A stretch of 64,000 nucleotides of DNA from Acholoe squamosa (Eukaryota > Annelida > Polychaeta > Phyllodocida > Polynoidae): contig OX439038.1 in the NCBI GenBank assembly GCA_949317995.1, positions 33,564,613 to 33,628,612 on the forward strand, read 5' to 3'. Shown in pieces: positions 2,273-54,101 of the stretch (the first letter of the stretch is position 1; every line of letters begins with the position of its first letter). The translations under genes were made by a program, and so were the position numbers. The notes below the pieces were generated by a model. It did no database searches. It worked only from the letters and a program-made list of their open reading frames with translations, and was not told the origin of the DNA.

Positions 2273-2597
2273 AGGCGCACCTCCTATTTTGGGAACTTCT
2301 AAAAGGCGCAGTAAGCCTCAAATTTGTGTATGCAGGAAATTACAGTTCATATAAAGTGTTTTATGGTAGGCACATTCTGCAGGACTATACATGTACGGGA
2401 ATGTATACACTACGTATCAAGTGCTACTTGACCTCTAACATGATCATAAATTCCCACATAAAAGTTGTGCCTTATAGACTAGGGCAGAGGCTAGCTACAG
2501 CTTGTAGAATTGGGCCTACAAAAATTTTTGTGTTCAGGTAACAGGGTCGAAAAAAATTAGGGTAGGTAGGTAGGTAGGATTTTTTTTTTGTTGAGAG

Positions 2598-2846
2598 TGT
2601 AGGGGCCAGCTCTGGCTGTAAGTCCATGGCGGTAGGCCATCTGCCCCGTTCCGGTTGCACCGGCCCTCAGGGGCTGGTCAGCTGGTATAAGCTGCCCCCC
2701 TTGTGTATTATACCGATCCAGATGTAGGTGGAAGGTAGAGAATGTCAGACGGGGAAGTAGCTCAGCGGTAGAGCTTCCGCCTGCAGGTTGGAGGGTCCCG
2801 GGTTCGACTCCCGGTTTCTCCAGGACATTTTCTGCCGACCTCTACA
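2598..2846 (+). repeat. left LTR of the tRNA-bearing TRIM
   Basis: It begins TGTAGGGGCCAG and ends CCGACCTCTACA. The tRNA-like gene occupies LTR positions 154-225, with a TTTT tract (2828-2831) shortly after it that could stop RNA polymerase III. Only one mismatch separates it from the right LTR. Confidence 0.8.
2751..2822 (+). tRNA. tRNA-Cys(GCA)-like gene inside the left LTR
   Basis: These 72 nt fold as a cloverleaf. The acceptor GGGGAAG pairs with TTTCTCC (two G-U pairs). The D stem is GCTC/GAGC. The anticodon stem TCCGC/TTGGA has one mismatch next to the loop, and the loop CTGCAGG gives anticodon GCA. The T stem CCGGG/CCCGG is perfect around TTCGACT. Internal promoter boxes are present: A box TAGCTCAGCGG and B box GGGTTCGACTCC. 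A TTTT terminator starts at 2828. The discriminator base is A, whereas canonical tRNA-Cys has U, so aminoacylation with cysteine is doubtful. It could be a functional tRNA, a pseudo-tRNA or only a Pol III promoter for the element. Confidence 0.75.
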
Positions 2847-2847
2847 C

Positions 2848-2860
2848 TGGTGGAGAAACC
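2848..2860 (+). promoter_or_regulatory. primer-binding site matching the element's own tRNA
   Basis: TGGTGGAGAAACC begins one base after the LTR end. Its complement is GGTTTCTCCACCA, exactly the last ten encoded nucleotides of the LTR tRNA (2813-2822) followed by the post-transcriptional CCA. Extending to 18 nt keeps 16 matches. This suggests priming by the LTR-encoded tRNA or by a host isoform with the same acceptor end. Confidence 0.75.
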
Positions 2861-3119
2861 AGCAGCCCCGTTTCTGGAGATCCCAGCCCCCAGGGGCTGG
2901 CATCCAGTGGTAGCTCCCCCCTACGTGTGTGTCATACCAATCCAGGTGTAGGTGCCTGGAACGGTATAATACAGATACGCTTCGACCCTGGCAGTACTGT
3001 GTACTGGTAGGTCAACTGGGAAGTCAGGAGTGCCTCACACTGCTTGATAAAGCCCAATCGATCTGGTTGGGAGGAATGCTTGGTGCTGGTTGGCCATGGT
3101 TGAAGCTGGTTGGGAGGAG
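2861..3119 (+). other. internal region of the TRIM, non-coding
   Basis: There is no open frame of note. Positions about 2886-2958 are a degenerate copy of LTR positions about 2662-2733; both carry CAGGGGCTGG, CCCCC, TATACCRATCCAG/CATACCAATCCAG and TGTAGGTG. It ends in the purine tract GGGAGGAG at 3112-3119, a plausible polypurine tract. Confidence 0.6.
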
Positions 3120-3368
3120 TGTAGGGGCCAGCTCTGGCTGTAAGTCCATGGCGGTAGGCCATCTGCCCCGTTCCGGTTGCACCAGCCCTCAGGGGCTGGT
3201 CAGCTGGTATAAGCTGCCCCCCTTGTGTATTATACCGATCCAGATGTAGGTGGAAGGTAGAGAATGTCAGACGGGGAAGTAGCTCAGCGGTAGAGCTTCC
3301 GCCTGCAGGTTGGAGGGTCCCGGGTTCGACTCCCGGTTTCTCCAGGACATTTTCTGCCGACCTCTACA
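3120..3368 (+). repeat. right LTR of the tRNA-bearing TRIM
   Basis: It matches the left LTR at 248 of 249 positions and is followed directly by AGAG, the second copy of the target duplication. Confidence 0.8.
3273..3344 (+). tRNA. tRNA-Cys(GCA)-like gene inside the right LTR
   Basis: It is identical over all 72 nt to the copy at 2751-2822, with the same A and B boxes, GCA anticodon, A discriminator and following TTTT (3350-3353). It is the second tRNA-like gene of the same retroelement. Confidence 0.75.
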
Positions 3369-3460
3369 AGAGTTTTCTTTAGGCCGGCTGTAAATTTCCG
3401 CGCCTACGCGACGCGAATTTGATGCCTGAGATCGGGGGAAAAAAACTTATGTCTTGATAA

Positions 3461-32939: not shown

Positions 32940-35078
32940 GTGGTATCAGGTAATTACGGTACTCTTGTTGGGTACAAATCTGCAACAGAACTTGGTTTGG
33001 TTAAAGTAAATCTAAACTCTATACAAAAAACTTCAGAGCCTGAAAAACTCAAAAATGACTTTCCCAACCTGTTCAAGGGTATTGGATGTATGAAAGATAC
33101 ACAGGTAAAATTGCATATTGACAGTTCTGTACAACCTGTGGCCCAGTGGCACCGCCGCACACCCTTTCACCTTCGCAAGAAGGTTGAGAAGGAACACGAA
33201 CAATTGTTAAGTCAGGATGTCATCAAAAAGGTAGAGGGAGAACCTACTCCGTGGGTCAGCCCTATTGTGGTTGTGCCAAAGCACAACAAAGATGAAATCC
33301 ATATTTGTGTAGACATGCGCGAGGCTAACAGAGCCATTCTGAGAGAAAGACATTTGTTGCCTACAACTGAGGAACTGATTAGTGACCTAAATGGTGCATC
33401 TGTGTTTAGTAAGATTGACTTGAAGGCTGGTTATCACCAGTTAGAACTGCACCCAGAGTCTAGGTATATTACAACATTCAGTACACACAAAGGTCTTTTC
33501 AGGTATAAGAGACTTTTTTTCGGTATTTCCTCAGCTTCTGAAATCTTTAATGAGCACATAAGAAATGTGATCCAGGACATTCCGCATGCTAAGAATGTGA
33601 GTGACGATATATTCGTTTTTGGTAAAGGCGAAAACGCCGACAAGATGCATGAAAAAGCTCTTAGAGAAACTCTAGCAGCCCTCGAGAAGGCTGGTCTAAC
33701 TGTAAACAGTGCCAAGAACGAGTATTACAAAGAAGAGGTTAAGTTCTATGGTCTGAAATTCGGTCCGAATGGTATCGCCCCTGACCCCGAAAAGGTCAGC
33801 GCCGTTCGAAGCATACCCTCTCCTACAAATGTTTCGGAGGTTCGAAGCCTCATTGGTATGTTGACATATTGTCCACGGTTTATTCCTGATTACGCGACAT
33901 TAAGTGAACCGATCCGTCGACTACTACGCAGTGATTGCAAGTTTGTTTGGACAAACGAGCAAGAAAAAGCACTGAACGCTCTGAAGACAGTATTGTCTGA
34001 TGAGACAGTCCTACAGTATTTCGACACGAGTAAAGACACAGAGCTAATCGTAGACGCTAGTCCTGTTGGTCTAGGCGCCATGCTCTGCCAAGACAACCGA
34101 GTTGTGGAATTCGCTAGCCGTTCGTTAACACCAACCGAGTCTCGCTACAGCCAGACCGAGCGTGAAGCTCTGGCGATTGTATGGGTGTGCGAACATTTCG
34201 ATATGTACCTCCGTGGTGCCCCCAGGTTCATAGTGTGGTCTGACCTCGAGACTATCTGGAAGAAAACGAATGCGCCTTCACTGAGAATAGAAAGATGGGG
34301 ACTCCGCTTACAGTCTTACGACCTAGACATTAAACATCTCCCCGGGGCCGAGAACCCCGCAGACTGGATGTCCCGGCATCCCGCGCCCCATCGACAAAGC
34401 TCTTGCGAGGAGCAGATAGCGGAACTTTACATTAATTTTGTAGCTGAAAATTGCACCCCTGCTTCGCTGATGCTCAGCGATGTTTGCGATATAGCCTCTA
34501 ACGATAAAACTTATTGTAAGGCTTTGGAGTTTGCCCTGTCAAGCAAGTGGCATTTGGTTAAGGACTTAAATGTAAATGATTTCGATGTAACTGAACTCAA
34601 AGAGTTAAGCACGGTTAGAGATGAGCTTACTACACATCCATCAGGTGTACTTCTAAAAGGTCACAAGATAGTTCTACCGAAAGGTTTGTGTGACCAAGCC
34701 ATCTCTATTGCCCATGAAGGTCACCAGGGCATGAATAGGACCAAATCGTTTATAAGATCCAAGGTTTGGTTCCCAGGCATTAATGAAAAGGTAGAGAAGG
34801 TAATTAAGAACTGTACCGCATGCCAGCTCATATATTCAAATCCTGTTCGTTTAGAACCGTTACGCATGTCCGATCTACCTGACTGCCCATGGGAAAATCT
34901 GAGTGCCGATTTTTGTGGCCCATTACCATCTGGCGACTATTTGTTTGTGATGACAGATGAGTACTCTAGGTACCCCTTTGTGGAAATAGTTAAATTTGTT
35001 TCCGCCAATACAGTAATTCCAGTTCTGGACAAAGTCCTATCAGATTGGGGGGGGAGTAAAACAAATCAAAACAGATAA
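32940..35078 (+). pseudogene. Gypsy-1 pol: reverse transcriptase, RNase H, integrase N-half
   Basis: The 712-codon frame has the domains in Gypsy order. Reverse transcriptase is at about residues 35-290, with WVSPIVVVPK, SKIDLKAGYHQ and the catalytic box SDD (NVSDDIFVFG, near residue 220). RNase H is at about 365-480, starting LIVDASPVGLGAML. The integrase HHCC zinc domain is at about 588-627 (HEGHQGMNR ... CTACQ), and the first catalytic aspartate follows in SADFCG. The frame then breaks at a G-run (about 35046-35053), where one extra or missing G shifts it. The catalytic residues seen so far are intact, so inactivation looks recent. Confidence 0.9.
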
Positions 35079-46599: not shown

Positions 46600-47057
46600 G
46601 GGTAGTGGTGGAGAAAAGCTAGATAGTGTAAGTTCAACACACATTTTTTACAGTGTAGGAAGGGTGGTGTAGGAGGGAAGCTAGACAGTGTAAGTTCAAC
46701 ACACATTTTTTACAGTGTAGGGAGGAGGGTGGTGGAGAGAAGATAGACAATGTAAGTTCAACACATATGTTTTTTACAGTGTATGAAGGGTGGTGGTGGA
46801 GAAAAGCGACACAGTGTAAGTTCAACACACAATTTTTACAGTGTATGAAGGGTGGAGAACCTAAACAGTGTAAGTTCAACACACATTTTTTTACAGAGTA
46901 GGGAGGGTGGTGGTGGAGAAAGGATAGACAATGTTAGTTCAACACACATTTTTTTACAGTGTAGGAAGGGTGGTGGTGTAGAAAAGCTAGACAGTGTAAG
47001 AACAACACACATTTTTTTACAGTGTAGGAAGGGTGGTGGTGGAGAGAAGCTAGATAG
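46600..47057 (-). repeat. about 62-bp minisatellite, left block
   Basis: Seven or so units of the form GTGTAAGTTCAACACACA, TTTTTTACAGTGTAG, GGTGGTGGAGA, AGCTAGA. The same array resumes at 59065-59600 on the far side of Gypsy-2, so the retroelement landed inside it. Confidence 0.9.
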
Positions 47058-51493: not shown

Positions 51494-52900
51494 TCAACTT
51501 TCATTAACAAATAACATTACACAATACAGGAATATATACACTTGTTGTGTACCAGGACTTAAGTAACGGCAGTCCTCAGGGCAAGTCTGTCTTGGGCTGA
51601 GCCTCTCTCCTACTCGACATTTCTTTTTCAACCCAGAAGTCTGAGGTGGTTTATCAGAAGATACCAGCGTCCTCTTCCTACCTCTACTTCTGTGTCCTAG
51701 CGAGACATTTTCCTTGTGATCAGATTTTAGATTCACATCAGTTCTCTTAACCTTTTTCCTCGAATTGTTTTTCGTTCCAGTTCTCTTAGAATTCTTTTTA
51801 TTTAATTTTACACCTTTATGCGATGTTTTTAAACAATTTTACAATTTCAGGCAATGTCTTTAAACATTCTTGTCTCATAAGGATCTCATCTTTCTCTCTA
51901 TTCCATCTCTCAGATAGTTCCTTACATTCAGCATTAGCAGCTTCTCCTCCTCTCCATCGTCGTAGTTTACAGACGTTCGATTTATTAATTTTACCCGTGG
52001 GTAAACTTAATATCGTCATGGTTGACTCAGAAATACTTTTTGTCACTATATGAGGGCCATCCCACCCTGAAACCAATTTCTTAGATAACAAGGGTTCATG
52101 GATTCAGAATACTTTATTGCCAACATTAAAATGTCGGTGCTTCAAATTAGTGTCATAACCAATTTTCTGCCAGCGAGCACTTCTCATTAGTTCAATTCCA
52201 ACTAGCTCATAAGCTCGTTTGAAGTGTTCTCTCAGTGATTCTACAAAACATTACTGAGCATGGGACTTCAGAACTAATCCCAACTACACCATACACCAAG
52301 TCTGCAGGCATAATGATATCCTCGCCAAAAGGTTTGGAGAGCAGTTCGCCGAAGCATGTACAGTGCTATTATAAGCATGTACTACGAAATCGCATTGTTC
52401 ATCCCAATCATCTTGGCACGAATTTACCAAGGGTTTCAGGACTTGAATCAATGTTCTATTGAATCTTTCCACCTGGCCATCAGACTGAGGTCTGTATGGG
52501 TTAGTTCGAGTTTTACATCTTGCCAAATAATGACACATCTCCTGCCATAGGTTTGACTCGATTTCTCTTCCTTGGTCACTATGCATCATTAGAGGTGCGC
52601 CTAGATGTAGGACCCATCCTCTGACAAATGCACTAGCACAAGTAGCGGCTTTGTGATTGGGCAGTGGGAATATACGAGTATATTTCGTGTAGTAGTCCGA
52701 AACTAACATCATGCAAGTGTTTCCCCGAGGTGTGGGTTCCAGTCCACTTATGATATCAATAGCTATTTGGGCGAAGCTTACCCCGAACAGTTCTTGCATC
52801 AAGGGCATTTTGCCCATACCGGAGCCGGGTTTGTTCTTACCACATTCGGGGCATGTTAGACCCATCTGGTAAGATCGCTACTCATTCCAGGCCAATAATA
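51494..52900 (-). pseudogene. Gypsy-2 integrase
   Basis: The frame 52865-52284 carries part of the zinc domain (CPECGKNKPG) and the catalytic core. The core has Asp in IAIDIISG, Asp in HSDQGREIE and Glu in SDGQVERFNR, the D,D-E set of retroviral-type integrases. The frame 52091-51816 gives the C-terminal domain (KLVSGWDGPHIV, CKLRRWRG). A basic tail follows at 51736-51494. The frames are split by indels near 52280 and 51815. The core itself looks well preserved. Product role: insertion of element cDNA into host DNA; this copy cannot make an intact protein. Confidence 0.85.
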
Positions 52901-53089
52901 GCGCCTGGAGAGACGTTCGAGTGACCTCTTCTTCCTGAAATGTCCACTTGTTTTGTGGCCATGACAGAAATACATAATGTCCTGTCAGAACCCCATAGAA
53001 AGTGCCGAAATTTCTTAGTATACACCACCACAGCCAACAACGCACGTTTAGTGGTGCAATAATTTTTTGCGCTTTATTCAAAGTATTAC

Positions 53090-54101
53090 TAGCAAAAGCA
53101 ATGGGAACCTCAACTCAATCTAGCCCCTATGCTATCATTGCCGGCATCGGTATCGAGGATGCAATGCCCATCCGAAGTTGGATATTTCAACACTGGCGTA
53201 TTTGCACACAAGTCCAATGTGCAAGTATCTGTAAAGGATAACTTACTTAGGAATAGTTCAGGATAAAGTCTCTATAGTATGAGCAAAAGCCCAGGAAGGA
53301 TCGAATCTCCCTGGCATTTTCAGGCTTAGCCCATTCTGAAACTGACTGAAGTTTCTCAGGGTCGGCTTGTATGCCGTCAGGTGTTATAATTCAGCCTAAA
53401 TAAGTAATAGATGTTTTGAACAAATTACATTTTTAGGTTTAAGCTTTAATCCATTGGCTTGGATTTGTTTCAAAACCAGTTCGAGGTTGTTAGCACAATC
53501 CTCAAATGTTTTTTCAAATACGACAATGTCGTCAAGATATACCAGAGAGCGTTCCTATAAAAGATACTCAACATGGTCTCCATCATGGCTTCGAACGTTG
53601 CTGGCGCATCACACAACCCGAACAGTAATACATTATATTGGAATAGTCTCATATGGCTCGAAAAGGCTTTTCTATGTCCTCAGGTTTCAATCCAATTTGC
53701 CAATACCCGGACTGTAAGTCTAGGGTACAGAAATACTTATTCCCTTCGAGAGAGTCCGAAGTTTCATCTATCCTAGGTAAAGGATAAGAATTCTTCTTAG
53801 TTAAATCGTTGAGCTTTCTATAATCCACACAGAACCTTATAGTTCCGTCTTTCTTCGTAGTCATGCAAACAGGACTAGACCAAGGGCTAGTACTAGGTAC
53901 TATAACCCACTCCTTCAATTGATTAAGGATTTGCTTCTCTGCTTCGAGTTTCTGTTTCAGAGGCAACCTCCGATAAGGAATCTTAAAGGGTTTAGCATCC
54001 CCAGTATAAATGCTGTGTAGAACTTTATCAGTCCTACCCACCGGACCTCCATCCTCCCTGAAGGCAGGGAAATAGTCTGTCAACAGATTTCGAAGTATCA
54101 T
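53090..54101 (-). pseudogene. Gypsy-2 reverse transcriptase and RNase H
   Basis: The frame 54101-53649 has the N-terminal polymerase motifs: WSSPVCMTTKKDG, CVDYRKLNDLTKKNSYPLP and LDLQSGYWQIGLK (first catalytic Asp). The next frame (53652-53470) contains LLFGLCDAPATFEAMME. The YLDD catalytic box is present at about 53535 in a third frame, displaced by an indel. RNase H is reduced to fragments around 53240-53100, including CILDTDAGNDSIGARL. At least three frameshifts make this a pseudogene. Confidence 0.85.

Follow-up and report, generated by a model that had tools for sequence, protein, structure and literature searches.

LTR retrotransposons and retroviruses are, to our knowledge, held to take their primers from the host or, in rare cases, to prime from their own folded-back transcript. 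The locus studied here raises the question of whether an element may supply a primer tRNA of its own. It lies in a stretch of 64,000 nucleotides from the annelid Acholoe squamosa (contig OX439038.1), which was analysed as a whole and is called the window below. It is a short element in which both LTRs contain a tRNA-like gene and the primer-binding site (PBS) fits the 3' end of that tRNA. As judged from sequence, the locus is probably a Helenus-like TRIM whose LTR tRNA is predicted to be its own reverse-transcription primer: the complementarity is found in more than 1000 copies, persisted where the tRNA changed, and sets the elements apart from the host tRNA-Ala genes found.

Structure of the element

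The earlier note on this DNA had described two 249-bp LTRs with one mismatch and AGAG on the outside, which repeat alignment and the flanks confirmed. A direct repeat was found at 2595-2846/3117-3368 of the window sequence, and the two LTRs differ at 1 of 249 positions. The parts of the element are as follows (window coordinates, strand, feature and basis):

2594..2597, strand., left copy of the TSD, AGAG (sequence and flank comparison)
2598..2846, strand +, 5' LTR, 249 bp, TGTAGG...CTCTACA (direct repeat and alignment)
2751..2822, strand +, tRNA-like gene inside the 5' LTR (ARAGORN, Cys-GCA; Rfam RF00005)
2758..2768, strand +, stretch TAGCTCAGCGG in the tRNA of the 5' LTR, which we take to be A-box-like
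2802..2812, strand +, stretch GGTTCGACTCC in the tRNA of the 5' LTR, which we take to be B-box-like
2828..2831, strand +, T4 run of the 5' LTR, candidate Pol III terminator (sequence)
2848..2860, strand +, PBS TGGTGGAGAAACC, complementing the LTR tRNA 3' end GGTTTCTCCA plus CCA (sequence)
2859..3119, strand +, intB, the interior common to full-length copies (comparison with full-length copies)
3108..3119, strand +, polypurine tract (PPT) GGTTGGGAGGAG (sequence)
3120..3368, strand +, 3' LTR, 249 bp (direct repeat and alignment)
3273..3344, strand +, tRNA-like gene inside the 3' LTR (ARAGORN, Rfam RF00005)
3350..3353, strand +, T4 run of the 3' LTR (sequence)
3369..3372, strand., right copy of the TSD, AGAG (sequence and flank comparison)

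With a total of 771 bp, the element falls within the size of TRIMs (under ~1000 bp) and, as in TRIMs, has its PBS 3' of the 5' LTR and its PPT 5' of the 3' LTR. None of the 11 ORFs of at least 150 aa in the window overlaps it, which indicates that it has no coding capacity. The 72-nt tRNA claimed for each LTR was recovered by ARAGORN at both places, and RF00005 matched the window LTR tRNA with 52.3 bits (E 2.3e-08). Its acceptor stem, read by eye, carries G3:U70 and A73 and is presumably tRNA-Ala-like. The anticodon arm of this tRNA type (type I below) is imperfect by reading, with a mismatch at 31:39, and folding the window tRNA by itself did not give a cloverleaf as MFE structure (z -0.53). 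The Pol III boxes and the TTTT which had been noticed in the LTRs were found again, the boxes by reading and the T4 run 5 bases behind the tRNA. Between the tRNA and the end of the LTR lie 24 nt, as had been stated, and the PBS, which starts one base beyond the 5' LTR, is the exact complement of the last ten encoded tRNA bases plus CCA. The CCA itself is not encoded after the window LTR tRNA, where GGACA stands instead.

In the window copy, part of the interior has been deleted: its LTRs are 273 nt apart vs 484-492 in the commoner near relatives, and it lacks intA together with the first 25 nt of intB. A degenerate U3 copy (71-77% in blastn) is located within its interior at 2883-2954. Upstream of the element, a 70-bp segment forms two adjoining copies at 2133-2272. 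Elsewhere in the window, five near-copies of TGGTGGAGA occur in ~450 bp at 46606-47048, which probably form a local repeat without relation to the PBS.

Copies in the genome

Further copies, for which the earlier note had proposed a search, are abundant: at least 77 matches were obtained by DNA similarity in the element's own 1.48-Gb genome (40 of 2321 candidates scored), besides the 1297 exact tRNA/PBS pairs treated below. The usual unit in near relatives consists of an LTR of 249, an interior of 484-492 and a second LTR. It had been considered that the repeats might turn out to be independent tandem units without a shared duplication. In the copies read this was not the case, as identical 4-bp flanks were present in 26 of 28 two-LTR copies (exceptions L013 and L029; truncated, rearranged or interior-starting copies are left out of this count) and tandem units stood inside such flanks. 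Tandem copies with shared LTRs were seen in L003, L031 and L041, with a unit of 735 or 741 bp. When 41 copies were parsed with the duplication as anchor, the two LTRs showed 0-3 differences in 30, more in four and unequal length in seven. Since most pairs differ at 0-3 positions, the family has been recently active.

The T run behind the tRNA is exactly four T long in 179 of the 183 type I and II LTR instances fitting the search form, some of which are overlapping loci. Between the two tRNAs, T4 runs besides those in U5 are absent in 57 of 59 elements (present in L019 and L060). The use of this absence as proof of full-length Pol III transcripts was rejected, because A4 runs are just as scarce and only ~1 is expected after dinucleotide shuffling of one copy.

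Five copies (L009, L030, L045, L010 and L015) begin exactly at an internal purine tract that is followed by a degenerate LTR start; the first three have 4-bp duplications, the last two none. They look as if integration had followed plus-strand synthesis from the inner PPT. The interior of L003 (1476-1596) also holds a degenerate U3 copy, preceded by its own purine tract. The internal U3 copy is a nested relic of an older LTR.

Complementarity between the LTR tRNA and the PBS

The exact fit of the PBS at 2848-2860 to the last 10 tRNA nucleotides plus CCA, which the earlier note had pointed out, goes beyond chance. Genome-wide, 1297 exact matches were counted for the arrangement of GGTTTCTCCA, 15-45 bases and TGGTGGAGAAACC, against 0 for its reversed-pattern control. 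These, like all pairing counts given here, are exact-pattern counts from one genome and therefore lower bounds. The fit was also checked in 40 loci picked by DNA similarity and not by their PBS, in which 79 LTR 3' ends could be aligned to the last base. N+TGG adjoined 40 of the 79 ends, 34 of these 40 carried exact TGGTGGAGAAACC, and GGTTTCTCCA stood at the expected place in 71 of the 79 LTRs. The tRNA end and the PBS are mostly 25-26 nt apart.

A generic search (B box, LTR end, other PBSs; 131 matches, control 4) exposed LTRs whose tRNA ends in GTGTCTCCA. In this second type (type II), the end GTGTCTCCA is combined with the PBS TGGTGGAGACAC in 249 genome copies (control 0). The type II tRNA has an Ala-like body and, by reading, the anticodon TGC, and the LTR is generally built as in type I. 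Among 20 type II copies read, 19 have the anticodon loop TTGCAAG, L095 being without it through a deletion. Four of six type II elements parse as an LTR of ~249, an interior of 209, the tract CTGGTTGGGAGGAG and a 4-bp duplication; the other two gave a poor parse (L173) and no parse (L171). As type II has a different tRNA and a compensating PBS, tRNA and PBS have been exchanged together.

Mixed combinations of the two types number 9 and 9 genome-wide vs 1297 and 249 matched ones, the type I/I pattern being two bases longer than the other three. Sixteen of the 18 mixed copies were read. Those with GTGTCTCCA and GAGAAAC comprise type II LTRs (L104, L106, L107, L109, L111), a type I body (L108, L110), one copy without a tRNA body (L103) and one outside the family (L105). 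Those with GTTTCTCCA and GAGACAC comprise type I LTRs (L097, L101, L102 and L099, one of three on C10), a palindromic joint (L096) and a small subfamily (L098, L100) with another tRNA body, the end GTTTCTCCA and the PBS GAGACAC, which misfits its own tRNA. This subfamily speaks against a strict own-tRNA rule, and priming by the type II tRNA would explain its misfit. The possibility that the PBS might match unrelated tRNAs in most members did not hold for the copies seen, most of which match their LTR tRNA; a misfit was met in this small subfamily.

Two more families showed the match. Among 20 loci from the generic-search list, the own-tRNA match after TGG was at least 9 nt in five, 6-7 nt in three and at most 4 nt in twelve. 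In the family alpha (tRNA end CATCTGGTG), the PBS TGGCACCAGATGC of L117 and L119 matches over 10-11 nt behind TGG, L118 combines this PBS with a mutated tRNA, and the LTR L116 is followed by unrelated sequence. In the family beta (tRNA end GTTGGGATT), the match is 9 nt in L120 and L122 and 6 nt in the decayed L121; L123, with the tRNA end GTTGGGATC and the PBS TGGGATCCCAACC, matches over 11 nt. A genome search for beta with both bases allowed on both sides gave 17 matches (control 0), of which 15 were family-like by their spacer. T73 stood with PBS A in 13 of these and C73 with PBS G in two, and none was mixed; the two matches set aside by spacer were one C/G and one mixed (C15:43795198). The covariation of tRNA and PBS, proposed beforehand as a test, was accordingly positive in two independent settings, at position 67 between types I and II and at position 73 within beta. 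Four tRNA types, with the 3' ends GGTTTCTCCA, GGTGTCTCCA, GCATCTGGTG and GGTTGGGATT, each match their own PBS.

Other candidates were not accepted. Families with the ends ATTCTAGAC, CTGGGGG, CAAGCTTGG and CATGGCC have self-matches of at most 4 nt save for L128 (6 nt), and so do L132, L134 and L135; L133 (7 nt) and L128 were not counted as self-matching. In L114 (1-141), an LTR-like end holds another tRNA, Asp-like by reading, with the end GGTGATCCTA, a possible fifth family.

Proposed mechanism

In the mechanism proposed here as the most likely, the LTR tRNA would act as promoter, R region and primer, with Pol III transcribing from its internal promoter. Transcripts ending at the T4 run of the same LTR would be pre-tRNAs, which would be trimmed and supplied with CCA to become primers. 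Those running on to the T4 run of the other LTR would be templates with the tRNA at both ends (R region). With Ty3/Gypsy enzymes acting in trans, the tRNA-CCA would be extended from the PBS, either on the same RNA or on a sister RNA, and the product would be integrated with a 4-bp duplication. The primer could also write itself into the PBS via the plus strand; that tRNA and PBS change together would follow, because the plus strand copies the primer 3' end. The usual primer copy is 18 nt long. In all four families, the match comprises TGG and 9-11 nt and then ends, which suggests a common primer footprint of ~12-14 nt; a PBS rewritten by an 18-nt primer copy would match further, and the stop at 12-14 nt speaks against such rewriting.

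The capture of the tRNA by simple primer read-through was rejected, in agreement with the earlier note: it would leave an antisense tRNA after the PBS, as in the 25 palindromic copies described below, and the functional tRNA is in sense orientation and upstream. The statement that the element supplies its own primer tRNA is supported on the sequence level by the match in most members and by the change of both partners in type II.

More tentatively, these elements might form a class with the primer built in. The LTR tRNA would be promoter, R region and primer at once; the RNAs, perhaps via tRNA-CCA 3' ends, would prime themselves or each other; and the PBS would be rewritten in each cycle and would follow when lineages swap their tRNAs, with at least four pairings in one genome. 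We regard this wider reading as possible but less likely than not.

Palindromic copies

In one mixed copy (L096/L141), the PBS is continued by a type II tRNA and LTR in reverse complement. A genome search for this arrangement (an LTR end, then N and TGG, then the 3' part of the tRNA in reverse complement) gave 25 copies (control 0), all of which were read. They join at the last base of the tRNA, via TGG. In 18 of them, the copy spans the tRNA and reaches through U3 to the start of the LTR; two of these (L144 and L169) have small deletions inside. In L146, the copy covers the tRNA and ~27 nt of leader. Several terminate exactly at the LTR start and several extend into the PPT and internal sequence. 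Where both ends were readable, a 4-bp duplication was found in three of four (L157 CATT, L152 CCTA, L169 AGGG; none in L167); L153 was excluded from this count, its left LTR following a purine tract. The duplications indicate that the palindromes are integrated cDNA products.

These copies bear on a special form of the preferred explanation, in which one molecule would be primer and template: the 3' end of the element RNA would be cut after the tRNA of the 3' LTR, receive CCA and prime the same or a sister RNA. The 18 copies that run past the tRNA through U3, several of them into the PPT and interior, are in favor of it, and so are L141, L143 and L152, which combine different subfamilies, so that their two sides come from different RNAs and the primer side from another RNA. 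However, ends exactly at the U3 start equally fit plus-strand strong-stop DNAs that anneal after priming by a released tRNA, and six of the 25 (L155, L156, L158, L161, L167 and L168) end within the tRNA or skip part of it. Palindromes could also arise when PBS copies anneal to the LTR tRNA after priming and therefore do not on their own name the primer; they fit both a released tRNA and a processed 3' end of the element RNA. We hold the one-molecule form to be possible, though on balance doubtful.

Possible alternatives: host tRNAs and hairpin priming

According to another explanation, priming is by host tRNAs in the normal way, the LTR tRNA has no role beyond that of a Pol III promoter, and the likeness between tRNA and PBS stems from shared host-tRNA ancestry. 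Published animal Helenus families are read in this way (PMC10886601), the type I and II tRNAs resemble relatives of tRNA-Ala, and the L098/L100 subfamily misfits its own tRNA. A comparison of 3' ends with the host set, as suggested in the earlier note, was carried out for the tRNA-Ala isotype; genes were recognised by their anticodon together with a motif in which several T-arm bases and the terminal TCCA are constant. This gave 47 genes (control 0), ending in GGCATCTCCA in 43, GGCATGTCCA in three and TGCATCTCCA in one; AGC-anticodon genes were not among these 47 matches. Thirty-five of them lie in one cluster (C15:5103895-5141531), often ~0.9 kb apart.

The common host form would require the PBS TGGTGGAGATGCC, from which the type I and II PBSs differ at two positions each, and at both positions they agree with their own LTR tRNA. 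Because the host genes end in GGCATCTCCA or close variants, the PBSs fit the element tRNAs just where these differ from host tRNA-Ala. For the 47 tRNA-Ala genes the comparison thus came out in favor of the claim, and this misfit is the strongest argument that element tRNAs, and not host tRNAs, would be the primers. Moreover, the covariation at positions 67 and 73 and the fit of four tRNA types to their own PBSs stand against host priming, which we consider unlikely.

A hairpin as in Tf1, with an LTR segment folding onto the PBS and being cut into a primer so that no free tRNA is involved, appears very improbable: the 10-nt tRNA end and the PBS could pair in the transcript at their usual distance, but the TGG with which the PBSs start, lacking in Tf1-like sites and part of the exact TGGTGGAGAAACC at 34 of the 40 N+TGG junctions, pairs only with a post-transcriptional CCA (the LTRs read encode none after the tRNA and have GGACA, AAGAC, TGACA or similar there), while ARAGORN and RF00005 both found the tRNA in all 12 further loci scanned, whose LTRs are divergent, and the A-box and T-arm columns are better conserved than U3 across LTRs.

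Comparison with known systems

Helenus comprises TRIMs with tRNA-like sequences in their LTRs in fungi, animals and Selaginella, and the animal members are mobilised by Ty3/Gypsy elements with 4-bp duplications (Kojima 2024, PMC10886601). By the published description, the elements studied here are alike in TRIM size, the tRNA-like LTR sequence with A and B boxes (boxes by reading), the PBS, the PPT, the 4-bp duplications of animals, the high copy number and the tandem arrays. However, complementarity between LTR tRNA and PBS was not found in Helenus, and the LTR tRNA was considered not to contribute to initiation (section 3.6 of PMC10886601), whereas here it is exact, widespread and covarying. 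The published behavior, a PBS that fits a host tRNA and not the LTR tRNA, is no formal criterion of Helenus and was not observed here.

Cassandra elements of plants, as outlined in the same source (PMC10886601), likewise carry a Pol III gene in both LTRs as promoter, within which the transcripts start and end; there, however, it is 5S rRNA, while here it is a tRNA, and the captured RNA matches the PBS. In self-priming of the Tf1 type, the primer is also supplied by the element, but through a loop formed by the 5' part of its transcript, and the TGG signature is absent (excerpt of PMC5006619, citing Levin 1995), whereas the TGG of the PBS here implies a CCA-tailed tRNA. HIV-1 engineered to need a tRNA in trans can be primed by an added tRNA when its PBS is altered to fit it (passages of PMC1785368); that is a laboratory construct, whereas the element described here is natural and its own tRNA is the one fitting its PBS. 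The biv-TRIM of bivalves resembles the present family as an animal TRIM that occurs in tandem and as solo repeats, but in the sections consulted its canonical PBS was not identifiable and an LTR tRNA is not mentioned (PMC6934838); both are present here. No earlier report of an element-encoded primer tRNA was found in the literature search, whose scope lay outside subscription journals and preprints.

If true, a primer-encoding element would initiate independently of the host tRNA pool, and its primer and primer site would evolve together. With covarying variants occurring in nature, both the choice of primer and the rewriting of the PBS can be tested on sequence data. tRNA annotation is affected as well, for tRNA finders call such LTR copies as tRNA genes.

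Ty3/Gypsy sequences

One of the partial palindromes, L158 (1-450), consists of an LTR without its tRNA, then TGG, then 35 nt of reverse-complemented tRNA ending at the anticodon loop. It then goes on into a reading frame with ..YLDDVVVFGKSF.., which by eye looks like a Gypsy-type reverse transcriptase. L158 is likely a template switch, and it hints at a Ty3/Gypsy partner. Within the window, Pfam domains of Ty3/Gypsy pol were recorded at 32940-35078 (strand +; RVT_1, RNase H and H2C2) and, with weaker RVT_1 and rve, at 52284-54101 (strand -).
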